Of a stretch of 41,494 nucleotides of DNA, positions 21 through 25,563 are shown piece by piece (the first letter of the stretch is position 1; each line of letters starts with the position of its first letter). Origin of the DNA: a bacterium (lineage in GTDB: Bacteria > Armatimonadota > Chthonomonadetes > Chthonomonadales > JAMCWF01); assembly GCA_021842405.1 (NCBI GenBank), contig JAKBZR010000002.1, forward strand, positions 52,757-94,250, written 5' to 3'. The position numbers were made by a program, and so were the translations under genes. A model generated the notes under the pieces. The model searched no databases, had not been told where the DNA came from, and saw nothing but the letters and a program-made list of their open reading frames with translations.

Positions 21-1181
21 GTGCCAAAGTTGGACATCGCGCTGAATTTTCCAGGCTGTCATCGTCACGGCGGCGTCGAGCGGATTGTCTATGAATGCAG
101 CCGCTATCTGGTCGGTAAAGGGCATCGGGTGACGATCTACGCCCAAGAATGGGAGCCGCTGCCGCACCCCGACATCAGTTATCAACTCATTCGCAGCAGC
201 CCTTCGGCTTGGCTCAATCCAACGCTTTACTATCGTGGCTTGAAGAGCGCATTATCTTCGCATCACCACGACCTGATCGTTGGGTTTGGCGCCGAGTGCA
301 TTGGCGATATAATCTGGACTAGCAGCGTTCACCGTGCATGGATTTCAAGTGATCTCAATTGGATGACCCACACCGCGCGACGGCTTCATCCCAAGCACCA
401 GATCATTCTCAAGATGGAGAAACGCCTGTTTACTCAGGGTGACTGGAGCAAACTGATAGTCTCCACTCAAGCCGTTGCCGCTGATTTAAACCGGTTATAC
501 GGTGTGGATTTTGGTAAAACTGAAGTCGTTCCCAACGGTGTCAATTTTCAGGAGTTTGACCCCGTTCAATATCAATGGATGGGTAACCGGATTCGCCGAC
601 ATCTTTCGATTCCTGAGGGGGGCGTCATAGCCCTGTTTGTCGGTTATGATGCGGAACGTAAAGGTTTGCCGACCATGTTGCAAGCTGCCAGCACAATCAA
701 AGAAAAAAGACTCTATCTAATTGCAGTCGGATTGAGGAATATCCGCCAATACCGCCTGTTAGCCGATCAGCTTGGTATCGGTAATCGCTTCATCGCGCTG
801 GCCCCGATTTCACCGATAACCCCCTATTATGCCGCCGCCGATTTTTTCCTACTGCCAACCCGCTATGAGGCGATGTGCCTTGCCATCCTGGAAGCGCTGG
901 CAATGGGATTACCGGTTATCACCAGCAACATCCCAGGAGCAAAGGAAGCGATCACTCATCTTGAAAACGGATTGCTTATCAGCGATCCCCGCTCCGTAGC
1001 GGAGGTCGTCGGTACAATACGCATTCTCCTCGATGATGAAATCCGGCACCGTATGCAAGCCAACGCCCGCCGATCAATCGCGAATTGGAGTTGGGACCAA
1101 GTTTTTCGCGATGCGGAACAAATTTTTATAACAACGATTCAGGAGAGATCCGCTTGCACCTATCTGGAAGGTTCAACCTGA
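21..1181 (+). CDS. GT4-family glycosyltransferase 1
   Basis: Retaining GT-B glycosyltransferase that probably adds a sugar to a lipid-linked oligosaccharide during exopolysaccharide assembly on the cytoplasmic face. The N-terminal acceptor domain has the family's glycine turn HGGVER at residues 16-21. The C-terminal donor domain has LFVGYDAERKGL and the E-x7-E signature in YEAMCLAILEAL, followed by MGLPVITSNIPG. At 386 aa it is full length for the family. The GTG at 21 gives a normal N-terminus, but no in-frame stop lies between it and the window edge, so a few upstream residues cannot be excluded. The next gene starts one base after its stop. Donor and acceptor cannot be read from the sequence. 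Confidence 0.9.
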   Translation: MPKLDIALNFPGCHRHGGVERIVYECSRYLVGKGHRVTIYAQEWEPLPHPDISYQLIRSSPSAWLNPTLYYRGLKSALSSHHHDLIVGFGAECIGDIIWTSSVHRAWISSDLNWMTHTARRLHPKHQIILKMEKRLFTQGDWSKLIVSTQAVAADLNRLYGVDFGKTEVVPNGVNFQEFDPVQYQWMGNRIRRHLSIPEGGVIALFVGYDAERKGLPTMLQAASTIKEKRLYLIAVGLRNIRQYRLLADQLGIGNRFIALAPISPITPYYAAADFFLLPTRYEAMCLAILEALAMGLPVITSNIPGAKEAITHLENGLLISDPRSVAEVVGTIRILLDDEIRHRMQANARRSIANWSWDQVFRDAEQIFITTIQERSACTYLEGST

Positions 1182-1182
1182 A

Positions 1183-2328
1183 ATGAACGTTTTGCACATC
1201 ACCGATTCAAACGTTTTTTGGGGCACTGAACATGCCATTTTATCGCAGGCAATGGCTTTGCGAGAGGCCGGTGTCACGGCGCACATAATGGCACCGCTCA
1301 ACTCCCCATTGAGCCGTAAGCTTAACGACACGGATGGCTGCCTCCTAGTTCCGGCCAGTGCATTCAAGGGAGCAAAAATCGTGATGGAGCTGGCTAATTT
1401 GCTGTGCAATGGTCGGTATCAAATTCTCCATGCCCACAACGGGCGCACCGCATTTCAGGCTGCATTGGCCGTTTGTTTGGCGGGTAAAGGCCGGTTCGCC
1501 TACACTCAACACTTTCTCAAACCGCGGCATCTACAATACACCGCTTCAAAACCCATTCGGCGGTACGTTCATCGCTGGGTCAACCGGCAGGCATCCCTTA
1601 TTGTCGCCGTCTCTGAAGCCGTAAGAAGGAGTATTCTTGCACGCCAGGACGCCCCTGAAAATCGAATCGTAACCATCTATCCCTTTTTGCGCAACCAACC
1701 GGAGCGGCAACCGCCCGGCGCCCATAACCATTCCATCAACACAGCATCAAATTGCGAAGCGGTTATCTTGGTGCTATCGAGGCTGGAAAAGGACCGGGGG
1801 GTGGATCTCTTCATTCGAGCCTTTTCCTATCTGCAAATCCCGGCAGAGGCGATGATCGTTGGGGATGGTTCGGAGCGCGATTCGCTGAAGCTGCTTGTGA
1901 GGGATCTCAATCTGGAGCGCCGAGTGCGGTTTGCCGGTTATCAATCCGATCCGAGTCGGTGGCTGGCCAATGCCGACATCGTTGTTTCGCCCTGCAAATC
2001 GGAGGCATTCGGCCTTGCCATCTTGGAGGCGATGACGGCCGGCAAGCCGGTTATCGCGGTGGATGCCGGCAGCGCCCCCGAGCTCATTCTGGACGGCGTT
2101 TCGGGGCGGTTAGTTCCACCCAACGACCATCGAGCGATGGCGGCTGTATTGGACCAGTTGATATCATCGCCTTCCGAACGATGCAGACTGGGCGCTAACG
2201 CATCGAAAATCGCATCGGAACGCTTTTCGGCTCAGGAGATGGTCTTGCGTCTTAAAAGAGCTTATGAACTAATTAATACCGGATCAGTTTTGTTTCAGCA
2301 AACTTTTGTTGGGAAACTGATTCTTTGA
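1183..2328 (+). CDS. GT4-family glycosyltransferase 2
   Basis: Second GT-B glycosyltransferase of the row, 381 aa. The N-terminus (MNVLHITDSNVFWGTEHAI) is the usual first strand of a GT4 enzyme, with a less glycine-rich turn than its neighbours. Donor-side motifs are VILVLSRLEKDRGVDLFIRA and the E-x7-E motif in SEAFGLAILEAMTAGKPVIA. The ATG is one base after the previous stop, so the two genes are almost certainly co-transcribed and probably translationally coupled. The likely role is addition of one sugar of a surface polysaccharide repeat unit. The specificity is unknown. Confidence 0.9.
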   Translation: MNVLHITDSNVFWGTEHAILSQAMALREAGVTAHIMAPLNSPLSRKLNDTDGCLLVPASAFKGAKIVMELANLLCNGRYQILHAHNGRTAFQAALAVCLAGKGRFAYTQHFLKPRHLQYTASKPIRRYVHRWVNRQASLIVAVSEAVRRSILARQDAPENRIVTIYPFLRNQPERQPPGAHNHSINTASNCEAVILVLSRLEKDRGVDLFIRAFSYLQIPAEAMIVGDGSERDSLKLLVRDLNLERRVRFAGYQSDPSRWLANADIVVSPCKSEAFGLAILEAMTAGKPVIAVDAGSAPELILDGVSGRLVPPNDHRAMAAVLDQLISSPSERCRLGANASKIASERFSAQEMVLRLKRAYELINTGSVLFQQTFVGKLIL

Positions 2329-2343
2329 TCCTTCAATAAAGAT

Positions 2344-3549
2344 ATGAAAGTACTTGCCATCTCTCATACCAGCATCAGCTACCAGGCCGGCATGGTTCGA
2401 TACGATGCGCTGGCTCGTTTAACAAAATGGCAAATCAAGGTTATAGTCCCTCATCGCTGGAATCAATACGGCCACTGGGTAAAGCCGGAGCTGGAACCCA
2501 TCTCCGAAGCCCAGAGGAGTATATGCCGGCTATTTACGCCACCGATTCCCCAAGTATTTAAGCGAGGAATGGCGTGCCAGTGGTACCTTTCGTTTTACGG
2601 CCATCTATTAGCCCGGCAAATCAGAGATTTTCAGCCTGATATCTTAGATATTTGGGAAGAGCCCTGGAGCTTGATGGCGGCGCAAGCGACTGACCTTTGC
2701 CGTAAATTCGCACCGCATTGCCGAATCGTTATTGAAACCGAGCAGAACTGTATACGCCTTCTGCCACCCCCATTTCGCTGGTTTCAATCCAACACCTTAA
2801 AGCGTTGCGATATGGCTATCGCGCGTTCAAAGGGCGCTGCGGATCGTCTTAGATTTCTTGGTTGGCAAAAACCAATTCGCCTAATCGGGAACGGAGTGAA
2901 TACGGTCTTCTTTCAGCCATTCCATCCCAGTGAGTATGAGCACGACCACCCGTTCACGGTGGGATACGTGGGTAGATTGGCGCCGGAAAAAGGGGTTGAT
3001 ACGCTACTCCACGCTATGACACGGCTTCCCGATGACATTCATTGCATCCTGATCGGTGCTGGGCCGCAAGAACCTTTCCTACGCCGAATGGTGAATCGGC
3101 TCGGATTATCCGATCGGGTTCAATTTACAGGATATCTGCCATTCAGCGAATTGCCTGCTGCCTACCGACAACTCAGTTTGCTGGCGATGCCGTCGAGAGA
3201 AACGGCAACCTGGCGCGAGCAGTTCGGGCGATCAGGCGCGGAGGCGATGGCATGTGGAATACCGGCGATTGGTTCCAGAACCGGTTCAATCCCAGAGCTG
3301 TTGTGCGAGGAAGGATTGCTCTTCCCGCCTGATCACCCGGAACAACTGGCGCAGCTTATTCTCAGCTTGCGAATTAATCGTGAAAAACGAAAATACCTTG
3401 CAGCAAATGGGCGATCGCGGACGGTGCAGCGGTACTCTTGGTGGCAAATCGCTTGCCAACTCGCCGAATCGTTTGAGGCTTGCCTTGATATGAACTCAGG
3501 CAACTGGATGGGTCTTAAAGCATTACCAATAAAAGCAGAAATGAAGTAG
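2344..3549 (+). CDS. GT4-family glycosyltransferase 3
   Basis: Third GT-B glycosyltransferase, 401 aa. The donor domain begins near VGYVGRLAPEKGVDTLLHAM and carries the E-x7-E motif in WREQFGRSGAEAMACGIPAI. The N-terminal half (SYQAGMVRYDALAR, then KVIVPHRWNQYGHW) resembles the Fringe-like half of GT4 enzymes that begin with an 'S-x-x-x-R' segment rather than GG-x-E. The gene lies 15 bases after its upstream neighbour, with only a weak purine stretch before the ATG, and the next ATG follows its stop with no gap. It is probably part of the same polysaccharide operon. The substrate is not determinable. Confidence 0.9.
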   Translation: MKVLAISHTSISYQAGMVRYDALARLTKWQIKVIVPHRWNQYGHWVKPELEPISEAQRSICRLFTPPIPQVFKRGMACQWYLSFYGHLLARQIRDFQPDILDIWEEPWSLMAAQATDLCRKFAPHCRIVIETEQNCIRLLPPPFRWFQSNTLKRCDMAIARSKGAADRLRFLGWQKPIRLIGNGVNTVFFQPFHPSEYEHDHPFTVGYVGRLAPEKGVDTLLHAMTRLPDDIHCILIGAGPQEPFLRRMVNRLGLSDRVQFTGYLPFSELPAAYRQLSLLAMPSRETATWREQFGRSGAEAMACGIPAIGSRTGSIPELLCEEGLLFPPDHPEQLAQLILSLRINREKRKYLAANGRSRTVQRYSWWQIACQLAESFEACLDMNSGNWMGLKALPIKAEMK

Positions 3550-4644
3550 ATGAGGATCGCAATCGTTCATGACTATTTAATGCAGATCGGCGGAGCAGAA
3601 CGAGTATTGCGGGCGCTGTTGCAGCTCTATCCCGACGCAGTTTGTTACATACCGGTATTCAATCACCGGTTACTGAAATCCCAATTTGACGGGATTGATG
3701 TGGTTCCCTCGTTCTTGCAGCATTTTGCCCACCGCTTCACCTACAAGTTGATGCTTGGCCTTTACCCGGTTGCGATCGAGGCCTATGATCTTCGCCATTA
3801 TGATGTGGTTATCAGCAGTTCCAGCAGCTTTGCGAAAGGAGTTATCACCACCCCCGATACCATTCACATCAACTATTGCCACACCCCATCTCGATTTATC
3901 TGGCGTTACCATGATTATCTAAACGAGCAAGATATGTCCTTTCAACAGCGAATTATCGCTCGCAGCCTGATCGGCAGACTGCGCAACTGGGATTACATTG
4001 CCGCTCAGCGGGTGGATTACTACATTGCGAACTCCCACAATGTGTCCCGGCGAATTCAAAAACATTACCACCGTACCGCCACCGTAATCTATCCACCGGT
4101 AGAGGTGGAACGGTTTCATCCAGAGGAGGCGAATCAGGGTGAGTACTACCTCATCGTGTCGCGATTGCTGCGCTACAAGCGCGTTGACCTCGCCATAGCC
4201 GCTTGTAAACAGCTTAATGTGCCGCTCATCGTGATTGGCGATGGTCCCGATATGCGGCGATTGCGACGGATGGCCGGCCCAAAAACGAAATTCCTCGGTT
4301 ATGTAACCGACACAGAGGTTACGAAAGCGATGGCTCACTGCCGTGCATTGCTGTTGCCGGGCGAAGAGGATTTCGGCATCACCTCACTAGAAGCGATGGC
4401 GAGTGGGCGGGCGGTCATTGCGTACGGCCGGGGCGGCGCGCTGGAGACGGTAACTCCCGGCTTGACCGGCCTCCTTTTTTACGAACAAGCAGTGGATTCG
4501 ATGGTTGAATGCATGCAAGAGTTTGAAAAAGTGGATTTCGATTCAAGGCGCTTAAGAGCTTGGGCGCAACGTTTCGATGTCAGCGAGTTTAAGCGGCAGA
4601 TTAAAAGCTTTGTGGAGGATCATCAACTGTTGCCGTGCCGGTAA
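3550..4644 (+). CDS. GT4-family glycosyltransferase 4 (mannosyltransferase-like)
   Basis: Fourth and last enzyme of the row, 364 aa. The N-terminus MRIAIVHDYLMQIGGAERVL and the segment NYCHTPSRFIWRYHDYL are typical of the WbaZ/MtfB-like GT4 subgroup, many of whose members are mannosyltransferases. The donor half has YLIVSRLLRYKRVDLAI and the E-x7-E motif in EEDFGITSLEAMASGRAVIA. Its ATG directly abuts the previous stop. The mannosyl assignment rests on subgroup resemblance only. No polymerase, flippase or initiating phosphosugar transferase follows it, so this is the 3' end of the cluster. Confidence 0.9.
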   Translation: MRIAIVHDYLMQIGGAERVLRALLQLYPDAVCYIPVFNHRLLKSQFDGIDVVPSFLQHFAHRFTYKLMLGLYPVAIEAYDLRHYDVVISSSSSFAKGVITTPDTIHINYCHTPSRFIWRYHDYLNEQDMSFQQRIIARSLIGRLRNWDYIAAQRVDYYIANSHNVSRRIQKHYHRTATVIYPPVEVERFHPEEANQGEYYLIVSRLLRYKRVDLAIAACKQLNVPLIVIGDGPDMRRLRRMAGPKTKFLGYVTDTEVTKAMAHCRALLLPGEEDFGITSLEAMASGRAVIAYGRGGALETVTPGLTGLLFYEQAVDSMVECMQEFEKVDFDSRRLRAWAQRFDVSEFKRQIKSFVEDHQLLPCR

Positions 4645-9352: not shown

Positions 9353-12300
9353 TTAAGGATGCTCTCGGCGGTAAAGATCAGCAACCTCACCAGAGGACAA
9401 CGCGCGGTCGTAAAGCCGTAAATCAGCGATTTGTCCTAACACCTGATACATATCGCCTCGATCGGTGTACTGACCGACAACCATGCCGCCATTCCATTGA
9501 GAGGCCGATGGGGTGATGTCGGTCCGCTCACCCGATAACTTCCCATTGATATAAACGCGCATCGTATGGCCGTCAAAGACCGCCACCAGGTTATACCACT
9601 TGCCGGCTTGGATCCGGCCGGTATCCAGCACGTTTCCATTGCCGATGTAAAAACGGACGCCACCCGAGAACACCTGCAAGAAAAACCCGTCCCCGTCCCA
9701 ACGGCCGGCTGAAACGATAACCGGCATCTGCGCAATCCGGTTGAACTTCACCCAGATAGACAGCGTGATGGCATTGTTAAGCTGGAAAATTGGATGGGGC
9801 GCAAAGGTTACCGCTCCCCCTGAACCAAGCAATAGCGCTTTGCGGCCGGTTTTGGTGGTTACAAATGAGAGAGTGCCTTCCGGCGTCCCGATTGTTCCCT
9901 GGTCTGATTTCAGATTTCCATTAAATGAAACTGAAAGAACGGGGTTTTGTGAGGCCAAAAGAGGAGTGACTGTTACGGGAGCCGAGATTGCACCCTTCTG
10001 GCCGTATTGGGTTAGGCTTTGAACCACGAATTGATAAGGGGCGTTTGCCTCCAAGCCGGTGACCAAAAAAGTATCGGCGTCGGCTTGCGCAATCCGGGTA
10101 TAGCCGGAGACGCCCGGTTCTTTCCGATAGACCTCATAATTATGGACTGGATATGGGAGCGGATTCCAGGTGAGGCGTACCGATCCGGCACCCGGTGATC
10201 CTTTAAGTCCGGAAATCAACGGCGGCGGGGGAAAAGTAGGGGTGTGCACGGTGATTACGCTCCAACCGGAGGTTCCACCGGCGATACCGACCGGTTGTAC
10301 AGCATAGGTTAATGAGGAGTTCCCCAGTGCCGTTGCGTCATAATATCGGTCGCTAATCCAGGAACCGATCATGGTGGCGTTCGATGGGGTAATTGAGCGG
10401 CCCGCTGCTCGCCAGATCTGATACCGAATTGCGCGGTCGGAATCTTGACCCGATGCCCATTGCAACCTCACCGTGTAGGGCGCGGTGACGGTCGCGGTCA
10501 AATCTTGAACTGGATGCAGCTTGCGTGAGGGCGCGATTTTCCGAAGGCGGAGCGGATAAGATGTGACGCCGATCACGGTATAGAGCTCTTTTGGGTAACC
10601 GGTTGGTTTTTCAAGGCGATGCCCCGCCCCATCGGTCGCTTCAATATAAAACTCCAGTCCCTGCGTTGTGACGGCGGAGCCGGGAATGGTGGCAGTGTAG
10701 CAATCGCGAAAAGTACGCTTCATCTCGAGCGGCTGAAACTTTGATGCCCCAATCGTCCGATAGTATAGGTATCCACGCGGGTGAATAGCTTCGCCAACGA
10801 TATAGGCACGAAAAGTGAGCGGCATCCCAGCCGGTGATTCGGACGGCGGCCTTTTAAATACCAAACGAAATGGAATTGTCGGTTGAGCTGAGCTCGGGAT
10901 CGGATCCATTTCCAACAGCTTCCCAATTCGATCACGAAGGTGCCGATAGGCGGCAACCGCCTTCACGTTGATCGTCGCCAATACGCCCCAATCGCTGCGG
11001 GTTGATAGAAGGTGGCTGTACGATCGTATAGCCTGACCGAGCGGCGCCTCTTGAATTTGGAGCCAGGCTTCATGCGCCAGCGATCTAGCTTGACTGATAT
11101 GATTGTCGGCGAGCAGTTGCTGCGCCCGATCGGTCAGTGATTGGGCGCTGGTGATCAGCAGCGCGGCTTTATCGTAGTTGGTAAGCCAATCAATGGTGTA
11201 AATCAGGTGATCTAAGTGAGAGAGGTATTGGAGTTTACCAGCCGTCTCATCCCGATGGCGGATCGCCTGGAGTCGCCCTTTTATCTGAGAAAGGATCGCC
11301 AGATTTTGTGGTTTTGGAAGCTGGTTGGGGATGCTAAACCACTGAAAATTGCCGCACTCCGTTTGACCGGATCCGCCGGTCCATCGCGGCCCCAACGCTT
11401 CCAGCTCTTGCATAATACGGCTCATTTCAGGCGCATCGGCCGACCCGAAATCCCGGTTCGCGTAATTCCACCAGAACTGCGAGGTCGTCAGTTGAGGGTT
11501 CCAGGCAAACTGGTAGGTATAGGCGGCCACTCGCTCCACGCCTCGGGTACGCCAGTGGATACCCAGTATACCTTGACAACCCTTTTGGAGCGCGTCCGGT
11601 AGAAGATGGGAAAACGGCGTCACGTTACACTGAGGAGCCCACTGGTCTTGCCGGCCGAGGTGCCCGTTGCCGGGCGGTGCGCCATCCGATTCAAACCAGG
11701 GAATAGCCCAGCGTTGGCGGGTTTGCGCCAGCTTCCCGTAGTTGACGCTTACACCCGGGTCCCAAGCCGGATTGATGTTGTCCAGCGCATCGAAGATGAC
11801 GCCTTTCGGCAGCAGGCGATCGAAGCCAGGAAAGAAATCAGAAAAGTGATCCCAGCGATCCCCACCCCATCCGCCGATCATTAATTGAGCGTGAGGCGCA
11901 ATGACTTTCAAAATGCGATAGGCCAATTGATAGTAAGCGGCCATTCGCGCCGCTTCATCAATTTTACGATCGTTCCCCAGGTAGGCGAAATCAGGATACC
12001 ACCTGTGGATGAGAACATTGAGGTAGGAGCCGGGAGGCGGCGGCGGATTATTACCCTGTGCCCACGCTTCCGGTTCCCACAACCAAACGTAATTCAGCAT
12101 GGGGTAATGGCGGATCAGCGCAGTTAGCCGGGCCTCTAAACGCTGCTGCTCATCCAGATTGGTAGGATCGCCGGAAAGCTCGAAGCCGATGGCAACCTTT
12201 AAACCCCGCTCGCGAGCGTAGGTCAGCGCTTCAGCCATCAGATGTTGGGCGCGGCGGATCGCATCCTCGCGATTTTTTGCCAATGTGGTGGCCCTCGAAC

Positions 12301-13183
12301 CAAACGCATTGGATCCATAAAAATTGCCGGTGCCAAAACCAAAGCGGGCAGTGGCCAACCCTTTGACCGTGCCCCATCCGTAGGTCTTCGAGGTAACCAG
12401 CGACTCGCCATCCACCAGTTTTCCCTGCCAAGTATAGGCTCCAAACGGTTCTGAATCGTAGGAGTGAAATCCGATGAAGTTCGCCTTCATCTTAACCATC
12501 TGGTCAATGAAGAAGCGATAGTCGTTGATATTCCAGGTGGTTGGACTATCCAAAAAGTTAAACCAAGGCAGGCTGCCCCGTATCCGAAAAGCCGGCTGTG
12601 AATATCGGCTCATCGGCGTGAATTTTAATGGGATATTGTCACCCGGTAGTGCATCGCCGCCCATATAAAATCCGATGCCCAGCTTGTCCAGCAGGGTGTA
12701 GGCGGCGTAAAGCGCGCCGATCGGTTTCCGGGAGAGCAATAGGATGGTCGGGATATTATGGCGGTTGCCAATCTGAATTAGAAAACCTTCGCCTTTACCC
12801 ACACGAACTCGTTGAACATCATCCGGAAGCAGGTGCAGATAACGACCAATATGGTCAATCGTGCCCAGGATAATCGCTGGGCGGTGTTGATTGTGCGGAA
12901 TGGGCAGGCGATGGATGGGCAAACGTTTTTCCGAAACCCGATAGCAGTAGACCTGCAGCGCCTGCGCCGCCTGTTGCTCAAGTGGACTGGCGGTTGGGCT
13001 GAGCCAGATAACAGCACCGGAAAAGTTGAGCGACGGCGCAACGGCGGAGTGAGTAGCGGCTTGAGCGCCAGTCGCTATCGCCGATAAAACGGTTAAACAA
13101 CAGATCGCCCCGTGCCATGGCGTCCCAAACCTAGATATCCCGCCGTTTACGCCCTTTCGAGAGGTGGATCGCACTCGCTGCAT
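9353..13183 (-). CDS. Large secreted glycoside-hydrolase-like protein with FN3 and LamG domains
   Basis: 1276 aa with an N-terminal signal peptide ending near ATGAQAATH. Residues about 50-175 resemble the alpha-glucuronidase/beta-hexosaminidase N-terminal fold (AIILGTIDHIG, then GALYAAYTLLDKLGIGFYMG). A TIM-barrel-like region follows to about 560 (MVKMKANFIGFHSYD, LNYVWLWEPEAW with acidic candidates). Two fibronectin type III domains lie at roughly 900-990 and 995-1090, and a C-terminal LamG/concanavalin-like domain (LSIWVKFNRIAQMPVIVSAG … GQIADLRLYDRALSSGEV) completes it. The likely role is extracellular polysaccharide binding and cleavage; no GH family can be fixed. The ATG at 13183 leaves only one base after the AAGGAG, so GTG at 13174 is an alternative start. 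It lies six bases after the upstream partner gene. Confidence 0.8.
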   Translation of the reverse strand: MQRVRSTSRKGVNGGISRFGTPWHGAICCLTVLSAIATGAQAATHSAVAPSLNFSGAVIWLSPTASPLEQQAAQALQVYCYRVSEKRLPIHRLPIPHNQHRPAIILGTIDHIGRYLHLLPDDVQRVRVGKGEGFLIQIGNRHNIPTILLLSRKPIGALYAAYTLLDKLGIGFYMGGDALPGDNIPLKFTPMSRYSQPAFRIRGSLPWFNFLDSPTTWNINDYRFFIDQMVKMKANFIGFHSYDSEPFGAYTWQGKLVDGESLVTSKTYGWGTVKGLATARFGFGTGNFYGSNAFGSRATTLAKNREDAIRRAQHLMAEALTYARERGLKVAIGFELSGDPTNLDEQQRLEARLTALIRHYPMLNYVWLWEPEAWAQGNNPPPPPGSYLNVLIHRWYPDFAYLGNDRKIDEAARMAAYYQLAYRILKVIAPHAQLMIGGWGGDRWDHFSDFFPGFDRLLPKGVIFDALDNINPAWDPGVSVNYGKLAQTRQRWAIPWFESDGAPPGNGHLGRQDQWAPQCNVTPFSHLLPDALQKGCQGILGIHWRTRGVERVAAYTYQFAWNPQLTTSQFWWNYANRDFGSADAPEMSRIMQELEALGPRWTGGSGQTECGNFQWFSIPNQLPKPQNLAILSQIKGRLQAIRHRDETAGKLQYLSHLDHLIYTIDWLTNYDKAALLITSAQSLTDRAQQLLADNHISQARSLAHEAWLQIQEAPLGQAIRSYSHLLSTRSDWGVLATINVKAVAAYRHLRDRIGKLLEMDPIPSSAQPTIPFRLVFKRPPSESPAGMPLTFRAYIVGEAIHPRGYLYYRTIGASKFQPLEMKRTFRDCYTATIPGSAVTTQGLEFYIEATDGAGHRLEKPTGYPKELYTVIGVTSYPLRLRKIAPSRKLHPVQDLTATVTAPYTVRLQWASGQDSDRAIRYQIWRAAGRSITPSNATMIGSWISDRYYDATALGNSSLTYAVQPVGIAGGTSGWSVITVHTPTFPPPPLISGLKGSPGAGSVRLTWNPLPYPVHNYEVYRKEPGVSGYTRIAQADADTFLVTGLEANAPYQFVVQSLTQYGQKGAISAPVTVTPLLASQNPVLSVSFNGNLKSDQGTIGTPEGTLSFVTTKTGRKALLLGSGGAVTFAPHPIFQLNNAITLSIWVKFNRIAQMPVIVSAGRWDGDGFFLQVFSGGVRFYIGNGNVLDTGRIQAGKWYNLVAVFDGHTMRVYINGKLSGERTDITPSASQWNGGMVVGQYTDRGDMYQVLGQIADLRLYDRALSSGEVADLYRREHP

Positions 13184-13189
13184 GCTCCT

Positions 13190-15373
13190 TTATTGATAAA
13201 TGAAGGTAACGGAAGCTTGGCATGGCACGGGAGTCCTCAGCGGCATCGCCTCTTTGGAATAGGTGAGCACGTATCGGCTAGTGGCCTCATTCGCTTGGAC
13301 GGTCAGCGTATGAGAACCGGGTTTCAACCCCGATAATGACAAAACATAGTGAGACGCATTGATGTTTCGGCGAATTAACTTATGGTCTAAAAACAGATTG
13401 AATGAACGAGCCGGTGCGCCGATCTCATTCCAATCCACGTCAATTGAGCGTCCGGATACCTTATTGTTGTAATCCGGGTTGCCGATTGCAAGGATGGTAT
13501 CGTTCGGCCTGGCTTGATGGTAAAGATTTACCAGCGCCCGCGTCAAATTCTGGTAGTAAAATCCCCAACCTCCACAACCGCGGTAGGCGCAGTCGGTCAA
13601 CGACGTCGGCTCGATGTCATTGCTAAGCGGGATATTGTAGCAGTCCACGTACTGGTCGTGTTTGGGGCCGTATCCGGCTCCAATCGGTTGACCGGCAAAC
13701 TCGTTCCACTGGCAAATGAACAGGAATCGAGGCCGGTACTTCTCCGCCGTTTTGAACTCCTCGATGTAGGTAGTTCCGCCGCGACGGGCGACCGCCTGCG
13801 GGTAAGTCCATCCTCCATCACCGAAGAACGCGATGGTGATGGTCAGCGCCTCCGGTTTTCCATCATAATAGGTTGGAATGGGGTGGATGACGCCGTCCAT
13901 CCACGACCAATAACCAGCCTGCACCGCCTGCTTATTGAACTGCAATTGGCTCGCCATCCATCGAACGGTGAACTGAGCCGTGTCAATTGGCGGCTTGCCG
14001 GCGAGAAAGGCAGGTCCTCCACCATTGAATGGAACGATAAGCGGCTTGCCCCGGTAGTAAACCCAAAGGCCTTTATACTTGGGATTCTGGATATAATGCC
14101 GGTAGATCCAATGCATCTCCTCATTTAATGCCGTCATTGTGGTGGTAGGACCGTTGTCCAAACCAAGAAGCAGCGTAACCTGCGGCGTGGGAATGCCTTG
14201 TCGGCGCATTTCGGCGTAGGTATCGAGAAGCAATGTCGTAGATTGAATAAGTTGATCCACACCGGGCGCACGCTCGCTCCAGTGTTGCTTGCCCCACAGG
14301 TTATTCGACCAATCTATCAGCAGAAAGTCTATGCCTGCTCGGTCGAGCCAGAGACAATGCTGGCGGATCACATTGCGATTGTAAGAATCGTAGTAACCAA
14401 TCAACGGTTCCGATTCAGCCGTGCGCCAGTCCGCGTTTAACGGGGTAAACCAAGGCTCGTACTCAATGCCTACGCGATGGCTCGGGTCTACTTTCACGCG
14501 GATGATGCTCCGATTAACTCGAACGTTGATTGCATTGGATAGGTAGGCTTGCTTCGGAAGCGGACCTCCAACTGGAAATCGTTGTTTCGGAGACATGCCG
14601 GGCCATCCGACGATGGTGCTTCCCCAAACACCTTGCCCGACCGGCGCAATGATAGTTGACGCTTCCCCATGGACATTAGAAGGAGTCGGCCACCCGGACG
14701 GCTCAGTTGACATCACCAGCCATGAACGATCGGTCGGTAAGACCCAATACCGGTTGCCGCTTTGTATGGTCAGTCTAGCCAACAATCCGGCCGGCCCGGT
14801 TCCATTAAATGCCTTTACCGCCAGCACGTTCAGACCCTTTTTGAGCCATCTTTGCAAACCGATCACGTGATGGACCTGCTGCAGATTGGTTCCGCTGGCC
14901 ACCAAATGGCCGTTGAGATAGGCGTTAAAGGCATCGTCACAGGTGATCAGCATGGTGGCTGAGGAAACCTTGGATTTTATGGAAAATCGCTTGACAAAGT
15001 AAACCGTTTGTTGATCTTGAGTCACGCTGCTCCATATCCAGTCGGCGGCCGGTATGAAATGCTGGGGTACTCCCGCCACTTGAATATGCGCTACTTCTAC
15101 ATTAGGTAACGGGATCAGAAACGTGGCCGATCCGCGCCGGTTCGTCGTTGCCGTTGCCCCCCATTGATAACCGTCTACGTATGGCCACAACTTTAAATTG
15201 GGTACTGGGTGATGCTGATCGGAGATGGCGGTGGCGGTGAGCACAATGGTTTGCCCCATCCCGATCACCGTCTGTTTTGAGCTGATGTGAATCCGCGGAG
15301 CCGCATTTGCACCGATTATGCTGTAGAGTAAAAGGCTCCCAATGATTGTATTACGAACGATTTGTGATTTCAC
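13190..15373 (-). CDS. Secreted GH99/GH71-like putative glycoside hydrolase
   Basis: 727 aa, GTG start with GGAGG seven bases upstream. Signal peptide to about residue 24 (LLLYSIIGANA). Residues 25-105 look like an Ig-like domain (IVLTATAISDQHHPVPNLKL). Residues about 110-215 resemble a galactose-binding/jellyroll module (ATMLITCDDAFNAYLNGHLV). The barrel from about 290 has VGIEYEPWFTPL, GYYDSYNRNVIRQHCLWLDR and AGIDFLLIDWSNN, and later RPRFLFICQWNEFAG, a pattern shared with GH99- and GH71-like enzymes. A C-terminal beta domain follows. It probably acts with the 1276-aa protein six bases downstream. Family membership is by motif resemblance, not proven. Confidence 0.75.
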   Translation of the reverse strand: MKSQIVRNTIIGSLLLYSIIGANAAPRIHISSKQTVIGMGQTIVLTATAISDQHHPVPNLKLWPYVDGYQWGATATTNRRGSATFLIPLPNVEVAHIQVAGVPQHFIPAADWIWSSVTQDQQTVYFVKRFSIKSKVSSATMLITCDDAFNAYLNGHLVASGTNLQQVHHVIGLQRWLKKGLNVLAVKAFNGTGPAGLLARLTIQSGNRYWVLPTDRSWLVMSTEPSGWPTPSNVHGEASTIIAPVGQGVWGSTIVGWPGMSPKQRFPVGGPLPKQAYLSNAINVRVNRSIIRVKVDPSHRVGIEYEPWFTPLNADWRTAESEPLIGYYDSYNRNVIRQHCLWLDRAGIDFLLIDWSNNLWGKQHWSERAPGVDQLIQSTTLLLDTYAEMRRQGIPTPQVTLLLGLDNGPTTTMTALNEEMHWIYRHYIQNPKYKGLWVYYRGKPLIVPFNGGGPAFLAGKPPIDTAQFTVRWMASQLQFNKQAVQAGYWSWMDGVIHPIPTYYDGKPEALTITIAFFGDGGWTYPQAVARRGGTTYIEEFKTAEKYRPRFLFICQWNEFAGQPIGAGYGPKHDQYVDCYNIPLSNDIEPTSLTDCAYRGCGGWGFYYQNLTRALVNLYHQARPNDTILAIGNPDYNNKVSGRSIDVDWNEIGAPARSFNLFLDHKLIRRNINASHYVLSLSGLKPGSHTLTVQANEATSRYVLTYSKEAMPLRTPVPCQASVTFIYQ

Positions 15374-16305: not shown

Positions 16306-17547
16306 TTACCGCGAATGGCGCCCTCCAGTTGCCACCGCTTTGAAGTAGGCGGCATCCAGTTGGCGGTATTCAGGCGGGCAGCCCAAAGGTGCCGCCCCAA
16401 TCGGCGTCGGCGCTTGACCGGCCGGCTCAGTAACCCGCTCCGCCTGAATAGAACCGGGTGCTGGTAAGGAACTATTTGTATTCGATTTCATTCCGATTCC
16501 AGTGTCCTGATTGCCGGACGAGTGGTTCACGTTAGCAATCATCTTTCCGCTCCGGTTGGCGGTGGATTTACCGGTGCTTTGCTTTATCCGGCCGTTAGGT
16601 TGCTCATGCCGCTTGGATTTTCCTGCCCAATGAGATGAGATCGTTAACGATTGGTGCAGCATCTTCCCGGACCTTTGATGAGACGGTCGGCCGCCCGATT
16701 GCAAAACGGGATGGAGGACCCGGATCGTTACCCAACAGCTGCGGCCAGTTTCTCCCTGTAGTTGAATGGAAGTATCGGCCAGCAGATGCTTGAGGGTGAA
16801 GCGATAGGTTCCATCCGGCTCCGGCATAAGGGGGGCGCGGCTGGGCGTGCCGTTTCCGCTTTGAGACACCAGGTCAAGGCGATCCGGTAATTTCCCGCCC
16901 AGCGTCGCTCGGAATGAAACCTCCCCTCCCCGGCCGACAACTGGGTTGGAGGGGCTGATGTGAAAATCGGTCCAGGTGAAGGGCGGCGTTCCCTCCCACG
17001 AAAGCAAAAAGCGGGGAACCTCGAAACCAAAAAAACGCGGGCAGATCGGTATGGGCAGAAGGGCCATCAGCAGGATAGTCAGCAATTTGCGGATTATTGG
17101 GCGTTGCCATAAGGGGCAATTATCTTGGAACTGTTTGACCAAAGGAGCTGCCGCCGCTTCAGCCCGTGCAATCTCGATCCGCATCAAGCCTGCGGTTGTC
17201 GGTGAAATGGGCTGCGATAGCCGGCTTGAAAAATCGCAGGCGTTAATGAAGGCGTTTTCCAGCTCAGCGTTTTCGCTGTCAATCCGCCGTACCGCCGCCG
17301 AAATCTCGGATTCAGGCGTAACTTTGACGAGGTAACCCGCATAGGCAATGCTCGCTAACAGAATCCCGTCCACGATTAACCGAAAGATAATTGGTAAGCC
17401 GACCTTGGCGTCCAGCAGCATAACCCCATAGATGCCGGCCACTGAAAATAAGAAAAAGCGAACGGCCAGTCTATTTCGGCGCCGGTGAGCGGTCTCCCAG
17501 GCCAGCCGGCTTGTCAACGGATGCATATCATGAACGGTAACGCTCAT
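16306..17547 (-). CDS. Membrane protein, DUF4175-like
   Basis: 413 aa. Two hydrophobic segments near the N-terminus (RFFLFSVAGIYGVMLLD and LIVDGILLASIAYAGYLV) and a third around residue 160 (LLTILLMALLPIPICP) precede an extracytoplasmic beta-rich part (SPSNPVVGRGGEVSFRATLG). A long Ser/Lys/Asn-rich low-complexity region follows. The C-terminal PPEYRQLDAAYFKAVAT resembles the end of DUF4175-like proteins. No strong Shine-Dalgarno is seen; a palindrome CGAATAATTCG abuts the ATG. It is coupled to the DUF4159 gene downstream. Its presumed upstream partners (MoxR, DUF58) are absent, because the mobile element begins 33 bases upstream. Function is unknown. Confidence 0.6.
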   Translation of the reverse strand: MSVTVHDMHPLTSRLAWETAHRRRNRLAVRFFLFSVAGIYGVMLLDAKVGLPIIFRLIVDGILLASIAYAGYLVKVTPESEISAAVRRIDSENAELENAFINACDFSSRLSQPISPTTAGLMRIEIARAEAAAAPLVKQFQDNCPLWQRPIIRKLLTILLMALLPIPICPRFFGFEVPRFLLSWEGTPPFTWTDFHISPSNPVVGRGGEVSFRATLGGKLPDRLDLVSQSGNGTPSRAPLMPEPDGTYRFTLKHLLADTSIQLQGETGRSCWVTIRVLHPVLQSGGRPSHQRSGKMLHQSLTISSHWAGKSKRHEQPNGRIKQSTGKSTANRSGKMIANVNHSSGNQDTGIGMKSNTNSSLPAPGSIQAERVTEPAGQAPTPIGAAPLGCPPEYRQLDAAYFKAVATGGRHSR

Positions 17548-24134: not shown

Positions 24135-24234
24135 GCCGGTTGCCGGCGATTCACGAGTGGATTGAGCGAGGCCGAATGATTGGCGCGGGGCACAGCTTAC
24201 CTTGGCGAGCTATCGAAGGAGGAGTATCAAGTAT

Positions 24235-25563
24235 ATGCGATTAGTACAAAGCGTTGGAGCAATACTGGCGTTGGTATCCATCGTCATTGCAATGGGTGTG
24301 AGCGCCCAAGCGCAGCAGGTTCCGGCCGCACCCGCCGCGCCAACAGGACCAGCGGCTCTGAATTTCGGGGGCGGGGCTAATTTCAATCCCGATCAACCGA
24401 TACGGCCCGGCTTTGTGGTTGCGGTTACCACGTTGGGAGAGCCGGATTGGACCGGCCAATACCTGGTGGATCAGAGCGGCAATATTCAGATGAAGCTGGT
24501 CAACACCATCAATATACTTGGCCTATCCGCTTCCGAGGCTCAAGACAAGATAGCCGCGCTGTTGAAGCAATATATCGTGAATCCCAAAGTAACGGTCAGT
24601 ATTGTATCGGTCCCCCAACCGATCGTCTTCCTATCCGGAGCGGTTCCCCACCCTGGACCTACTCAGATTACTCAATCGGTTCGTTTGGCCGATCTGCTGA
24701 CAACTTCCGGTTGGACTGATAGCGCCGACCTCACCCATATCCGCATCGTTTCCCGGGATCAAAAGGGAAACATAACGATGCACATCTACAATTTCGCAAG
24801 TTGGCTCAAGCCATTACCCGGCCAGTTGCCCGATGAGTCGCAAAATCCGCTCCTGCATGATCGCGATCTCATCTACGTGCCGATTAAAGTACTGCCCGGC
24901 AGCGGCGTAGTGACGGTCGAGGGGGCGGTGGTCAAACCGGGCCCGGTTGATATTCGAATCGGTGTCCCGTTTACCGTTCGTGAGGCAATCAGCGCAGCGG
25001 GCGGCCCGATTATGGGCAGTGTGACCGGTGCGGGTGCCGCCGCCGCTCCAACCCAGATGGTGGAGGCAAATCGTTTGGAAGTGTCGGTCCAGCGATTAGG
25101 AGAATCGAAACCATTATCCATCAACATCGCGAAAGCAGAGCAAGGAGACCCGGTCAATAACATCGCCCTGCATGACGGCGACGTGATCTATGTGAAACAA
25201 TTACCGCGCCGTGACTACTACAACATGGTCGGCGGATTTATGCTACCGGGTCGCAAATTTTACTCTCACACGATCACGCTTACCCAGGCAATTGGCGATG
25301 CGGGTGGCGTTCTCCCCTACTCCAAGCTCAAACAGGGCCGAATTTACCGCCATCCGGTTAGCGGAAATCCTTTGAAAACGCAGATCATCGCGTTTAATTG
25401 GGGCAAGATTCGATCCGGCAAGGAGCCCGATATCGAGCTTCAACCGGGCGATACGATTGAAATACCGGCCGGCCGACCGTCCACCGCACCGAGCGCACTG
25501 CAGGTGCTGGGCGCGATGGGCAGCTTGGCGTTCTTCATCAGCGTGCTGACTCGCGGGTACTGA
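24235..25563 (+). CDS. Polysaccharide export protein (Wza/BexD-like, SLBB domains)
   Basis: 442 aa from ATG 24235, chosen because AGGAGGAG (24217-24224) lies ten bases upstream; an in-frame start at 24202 lies before that site. Signal peptide to about VSAQAQQ, a Pro/Ala-rich linker, then a Poly_export domain (IRPGFVVAVTTLGEPDWTG, LSASEAQDKIAALLKQYI) and three SLBB-like repeats (VFLSGAVPHPGPTQI, VTVEGAVVKPGPVDI, MVGGFMLPGRKFYSH). The C-terminal ALQVLGAMGSLAFFISVL is a membrane helix, as in Wza. No lipobox cysteine is seen. It would form the outer-membrane exit channel for the polysaccharide made by GT4-type enzymes. A 12-bp hairpin follows. Confidence 0.9.
   Translation: MRLVQSVGAILALVSIVIAMGVSAQAQQVPAAPAAPTGPAALNFGGGANFNPDQPIRPGFVVAVTTLGEPDWTGQYLVDQSGNIQMKLVNTINILGLSASEAQDKIAALLKQYIVNPKVTVSIVSVPQPIVFLSGAVPHPGPTQITQSVRLADLLTTSGWTDSADLTHIRIVSRDQKGNITMHIYNFASWLKPLPGQLPDESQNPLLHDRDLIYVPIKVLPGSGVVTVEGAVVKPGPVDIRIGVPFTVREAISAAGGPIMGSVTGAGAAAAPTQMVEANRLEVSVQRLGESKPLSINIAKAEQGDPVNNIALHDGDVIYVKQLPRRDYYNMVGGFMLPGRKFYSHTITLTQAIGDAGGVLPYSKLKQGRIYRHPVSGNPLKTQIIAFNWGKIRSGKEPDIELQPGDTIEIPAGRPSTAPSALQVLGAMGSLAFFISVLTRGY

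Follow-up and report, generated by a model that had tools for sequence, protein, structure and literature searches.

Two adjacent genes from a member of the Chthonomonadales encode putatively secreted proteins: a GH99/GH71-superfamily variant with an altered dyad and a GH67N-linked probable barrel protein

The glycoside hydrolase (GH) families GH99 and GH71 are described as sharing a D/E-x-x-E dyad while differing in mechanism (1,2-anhydro retaining and inverting, respectively; PMC12394665). EW[H/G]E is reported as a motif that GH99 conserves across life, with DYGE as the mark of GH71 (PMC11025385); DYGE is also ascribed to PmGH99, a bacterial protein that bears the label cd11575 GH99_GH71_like_3 and is uncharacterised (PMC13421300). 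An order in which a GH20b or GH67N domain precedes a barrel has likewise been described (PMC4449183). Here we analyse two genes, A and B, in a stretch of 41,494 nucleotides (the window; contig JAKBZR010000002.1, positions 52,757 to 94,250) from a 3.5-Mb draft genome of a bacterium of the Chthonomonadales, phylum Armatimonadota (GCA_021842405.1). We are inclined to think that A and B form one transcript unit and encode two secreted glycoside hydrolases, divergent variants of their superfamilies, that would act on a plant-type complex glycan.

By sequence comparison A and B are real genes, since relatives encoded in other genomes align with most of A at 35-57% identity and with most of B at 29-47%. 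A lies upstream of B on the same strand, and bases 13184-13189 form a 6-bp spacer. The ribosome-binding-like sequence GGAGGA precedes the start of A. The TAA of A is directly followed by AGGAGC and then by the ATG of B, and because the gap thus holds a ribosome-binding-like site for B, the two genes are probably co-transcribed. The annotated ATG of B (13183) stands one base from AGGAG, so that translation may in fact begin at the GTG of codon 4. A hydropathy scan found hydrophobic stretches at residues 10-21 of A and 26-37 of B (numbers refer to the full open reading frames, ORFs), which fit signal peptides and suggest that both proteins are secreted. Neither protein reaches a catalytic cut-off in Pfam or NCBIfam. 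The initial annotation had called the ORFs six bases apart, with signal peptides and no clear family assignment, and these statements hold. Its further proposals, a GH99/GH71-like A and a B with GH67-N-like, FN3 and LamG regions, are upheld below, and the acidic motifs it singled out (WEPEAW, containing E372 of B, and WNEF, containing E558 of A) proved invariant in close relatives.

Relatives were sought in 291 genomes of the phylum of the window. The A profile was built from 20 of the 23 long A matches (left out were G030:C84, which has an in-frame stop, G031:C118 and the G254 locus L031). Compared by hhalign with 17 GH99 sequences of the same phylum, this profile gave a probability of 98.8% (E 1e-16), against at most 0.6% for the controls (GH67, GH20, 20 column shuffles and the reversed profile). 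It also matched the GH99 structures 4acy (4.7e-4) and 6zdc (0.017) in the Protein Data Bank (PDB). Pfam GH99 appeared weakly in seven of the 20 relatives (best E 0.0028); A itself had no match and did not reach the PF16317 gathering score. The hhalign comparison places the WNEF of A, with E558, on the GH99 motif NEWHE. We followed the acids in an alignment of 35 rows, comprising 30 GH99-like sequences (the 20 long and 10 shorter A relatives, several further shorter matches being left out) and five of the 17 GH99s. E558 is kept in all 35 rows. By contrast, the Glu that GH99 carries three residues later has no acidic counterpart in any of the 30 GH99-like rows, and A reads EFAG in place of the DYGE of GH71 and PmGH99. 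Thus A is, on these alignments, a GH99/GH71-superfamily variant with an altered dyad, which by motif belongs neither to GH99, whose second Glu it has lost, nor to GH71.

As the second Glu is absent, the second catalytic acid of A, if there is one, must sit elsewhere. D354, E508 and D586 are each present in 30/30 GH99-like rows, E588 in 29/30, and position 577 holds Asp in 28 rows and Glu in the other two; among these five, E588 alone is matched in each of the five GH99 rows. The first candidate would be the D577...D586-I-E588 loop, an insertion at the site of the second Glu and the IEP of GH99. A resembles GH99 (BxGH99 and MANEA; endo-alpha-1,2-mannosidase/mannanase) in a distant sequence relation over residues ~319-560, in E558 and in the IEP motif at E588, and differs in the lost Glu, in an unrecognisable HIEPY and in an extra loop of ~30 residues bearing D577/D586. 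The alpha-1,3-glucanases of GH71 and the cd11575 group belong to the GH99 superfamily, the bacterial cd11575 relatives being uncharacterised. The genome of the window encodes two further GH99-like proteins (L002 on C132, L004 on C54), which share the altered dyad and give no match to a CBM67-type family in Pfam.

Besides its GH99-like domain, A contains a weak Ig-like domain and a CBM67/lectin-like domain, the latter an addition to the earlier description. The best NCBIfam match of A is the N-terminal part of an alpha-L-rhamnosidase (residues 107-254, 5e-16, far under cut-off), and over this stretch A alone matched the lectin 6t0q (8.5e-16). With the profile of 20 relatives the matches were 7e-28 for 6t0q and 2.2e-17 for 3w5m, so that both the two-domain fungal lectin 6t0q/6kbj, which we take to be from Pleurotus ostreatus, and the CBM67 of SaRha78A are covered. 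A paired Asp-Asp, D146 D147, is invariant in 20/20 relatives and stands where the CBM67 of SaRha78A has Asp-Asn (D179/N180, presumably rhamnose-binding). In A the domain is joined to a GH99-like barrel, whereas in SaRha78A it is joined to GH78.

Protein B was found to consist of a GH67N domain, a probable barrel and Ig, FN3, FN3 and LamG modules. The relationship of its N-terminal domain to GH67, GH20 and GH115 is solid at the sequence level. In the alignment of the window protein with 17 of 20 B loci (leaving out L053, truncated, and L099 and L101, with in-frame stops), GH67N was found in 12 of the 18 members (best 8.9e-13) and GH20b in six; B itself scored 16 bits for GH67N, under the 24.3-bit cut-off. 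The B profile matched the N-domain of GH67 1gqi (1.3e-10) and GH115 7pxq (6e-6) in the PDB. The whole profile reached 97.6% in hhalign against 13 GH67s of the phylum (columns 35-567) and 95.4% against 20 GH20s, compared with at most 1.4% for shuffles and 8.2% for an unrelated GH99 profile. Further along B, Pfam recognises LamG (PF13385, 2e-25) and one fn3 above cut-off (9.8e-9), and a match to NCBIfam CbhB (residues 893-1089) backs the two-FN3 stretch.

In 26 rows including distant relatives, the conserved residues of the barrel region of B are D500 (26), E372 (25), E245 (25), E498 (24), H240 (24) and E335 (23). E372 together with E498/D500 is most likely the catalytic centre, to judge from this conservation. 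E372 falls on the Glu of the GH67 motif NSEGQPGP, which we take to be the catalytic acid of that family; it is the only residue of the motif that aligns with B. None of the 18 aligned members gave a match to PF07488 (GH67M). Like GH20 hexosaminidases, B has a GH20b-type N-terminal domain and a barrel start of the form RG...N..H.YD. It differs from them in having Pro371-Glu372 and hence no GH20-type Asp-Glu pair, and no Asp before this Glu was seen in the alignment rows. In the distant relatives L115, L116, L118 and L122 a malectin domain is inserted within the barrel region. The features of both genes are collected in Table 1.

Table 1. Features of genes A and B (window coordinates, all on the minus strand)
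Feature	Position	Strand	Residues	Remark and basis
ORF A	13190..15373	-	727 aa	GTG start; putatively secreted GH99/GH71-superfamily protein
Signal-peptide-like N-terminus of A	15299..15373	-	~1-25	Putative; hydropathy
Ig-like (Big) domain of A	15107..15283	-	~31-89	Putative; weak Pfam Big_3_5/Big_1
CBM67/lectin-like domain of A	14609..15049	-	~109-255	Invariant D146 D147; PDB/profile matches
GH99-like, putatively catalytic domain of A	13538..14476	-	~300-612	hhalign, PDB profile, Pfam on relatives
E558 codon	13700..13702	-	558	Aligns with first Glu of GH99 EWHE; alignments, conservation
D577...D586-I-E588 motif	13610..13645	-	577-588	Candidate relocated second acid
ORF B	9353..13183	-	1276 aa	ATG start; putatively secreted GH67N-linked probable barrel protein
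Signal-peptide-like N-terminus of B	13058..13183	-	~1-42	Putative; hydropathy
GH67N/GH20b-type N-terminal domain of B	12614..13015	-	~57-190	Pfam, PDB profile, hhalign
Probable (beta/alpha)8 catalytic domain of B	11291..12613	-	~191-631	Proposed fold; alignments and profile comparisons
E372 codon (WLWEPE)	12068..12070	-	372	Candidate acid/base; 25/26 rows
E498-S-D500 codons	11684..11692	-	498-500	Candidate base/nucleophile pair; 24/26 and 26/26 rows
Post-barrel region of B	10694..11290	-	~632-830	Possibly helical; aligned in relatives
First FN3-like domain of B	10229..10504	-	~894-985	NCBIfam CbhB and PDB profile matches
Second FN3 domain of B	9968..10192	-	~998-1072	Pfam PF00041
LamG domain of B	9380..9826	-	~1120-1268	Pfam PF13385, 2e-25

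The two families were then compared in their distribution over the 291 genomes. The C-terminal 446 residues of A have matches in 28 genomes at 1e-10, and residues 45-894 of B in 47 at 1e-6; two scans of viral contigs returned no relative. A long A match occurs in 20 genomes and a B match at 1e-50 in 29, nine genomes including that of the window having both. B is thus present in 9/20 genomes with A and in 20/271 without it (Fisher 2e-5, uncorrected for ancestry). One in-frame TAG each was found in the A/B relatives L081 (7928-10018), L099 (8834-11209) and L101 (6602-9040), and for L081 and L099, the two that were compared, a relative of the same genus reads a sense codon at that position. These could be sequencing errors, pseudogenes or, less likely, cases of recoding.

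Several results weigh against the reading of A and B as a hydrolase pair. In all eight other genomes with both families, A and B lie on different contigs. Their adjacency is limited to this window and the pair is therefore not a conserved unit; the conserved A-B pair implied by the initial annotation was rejected, although the families co-occur above chance. The neighbours in the window (an ammonium transporter, an amidohydrolase, DUF4159 and a gene with no Pfam match) are not catabolic carbohydrate-active enzymes (CAZymes). AlphaFold2 models were unusable, with a pLDDT of 32 both for the barrel of A alone and for the N-domain and barrel of B aligned with L013. The barrel of B taken alone gave weak hhalign results: 33% for GH67, 0.7% for GH20 and 16.9% for the GH99 control with one alignment (A4), and 18%, 72% and 2.2%, respectively, with another (A5, which leaves out the truncated L113 and L123, and L128). 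Because the barrel alone matches so weakly, most of the 97.6% GH67 score must come from the N-domain. A barrel-only PDB search gave one chance-level match with A4 and weak GH20 matches ranked under a designed protein with A5. The relationship of the barrel is thus weak, and the fold is proposed with the help of the known domain order, in which a barrel follows GH20b/GH67N. Finally, loss of the dyad in A could mean loss of activity, the acids named above being only candidates for the second one.

What substrate the two proteins might act on was considered from the genes that accompany their relatives. In G033 (L074), the same-strand genes downstream of A encode GH43, GH79C, a GH42-like protein and GH116, and in G034 A also heads a same-strand run, with genes in the same clusters as those of G033. 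In G205 (L103), B is flanked by a pectate-lyase-fold gene and by a gene that has no match in Pfam, and a GH127 gene lies nearby. This context is thin but points to plant-type glycans rich in arabinose, uronate or rhamnose. It is unlikely that A and B act instead on the exopolysaccharide or an envelope glycan of the cell itself. The window does contain an apparent exopolysaccharide locus (21-4644 and 24202-25563), with four consecutive GT4 glycosyltransferase genes and one for a Poly_export/SLBB polysaccharide exporter, but all of these lie on the opposite strand at a distance of over 4 kb, and relatives of A and B lie beside catabolic CAZymes in other genomes. URO-D genes were found near B in 6/20 B loci and in 0/20 A loci (by gene clusters, with Pfam on some). 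URO-D (PF01208) is strongly expanded in the 10 genomes searched, with 16 genes in that of the window and up to 86 in G257, and since each of them carries 16 to 86 such genes, a URO-D/demethylation link to B was rejected as background. A 413-aa ORF without Pfam match (16306-17547, minus strand) lies directly upstream of the DUF4159 gene in the direction of A and B. Near a B relative, L097 (2817-5777, minus strand) encodes a NACHT protein with an FGE-sulfatase domain, a defence-like architecture.

A further possibility is that A, and perhaps B, is catalytically dead and serves as a glycan-binding or scaffold protein, the barrel of A being kept for binding only. The absence of an acid three residues past E558 in 30/30 relatives would fit this notion, as would the lectin and Ig modules that accompany the barrel. 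However, E558, D354, E508 and D586 are invariant in relatives of several architectures, which is unusual for dead enzymes, and A stands in same-strand runs with GH43 and GH79C genes in G033 and G034, so we consider this improbable. Equally doubtful is an alpha-glucuronidase-like B, a functional GH67/GH115 analogue removing (4-O-methyl)glucuronic acid: its GH67N domain, the position of E372 and the lack of a PF07488 match in the genome of the window (13/291 phylum genomes have one) would favour it, but the remaining GH67 motif and PF07488 are missing from B, the barrel-only match is weak and, compared with GH67/GH115, the C-terminal modules are different.

Under the preferred reading of two secreted hydrolases, the CBM67-like lectin domain of A would bind the glycan and its GH99/GH71-type barrel would cut it. 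E558 would still act as the first acid of the dyad, and the second would have moved to the conserved D577/D586-I-E588 loop, with D354 and E508 as further candidates. In B, the GH67N-type domain would support the barrel, E372 would serve as acid and E498/D500 as base or nucleophile, and the Ig/FN3/LamG modules would hold the substrate. Together with other secreted hydrolases, A and B may trim an arabinose-, uronic acid- and rhamnose-rich glycan of plant type.

Uncharacterised groups like A and B are numerous. Tentatively, A may found a new family within the GH71/GH99 superfamily, its general acid relocated from E-x-x-E to the inserted D...S-x-D-I-E-P loop, with mechanism and linkage specificity probably changed, and B may found a second, in which GH67N and barrel are combined with an E372/E498/D500 centre of no described GH family. 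B would represent a second widespread secreted family with an unassigned barrel. A is a modest target for finding a new enzyme activity, and the group around it, in which the first acid is kept and another set of acids is conserved, would directly test how the GH99/GH71 fold changes mechanism.

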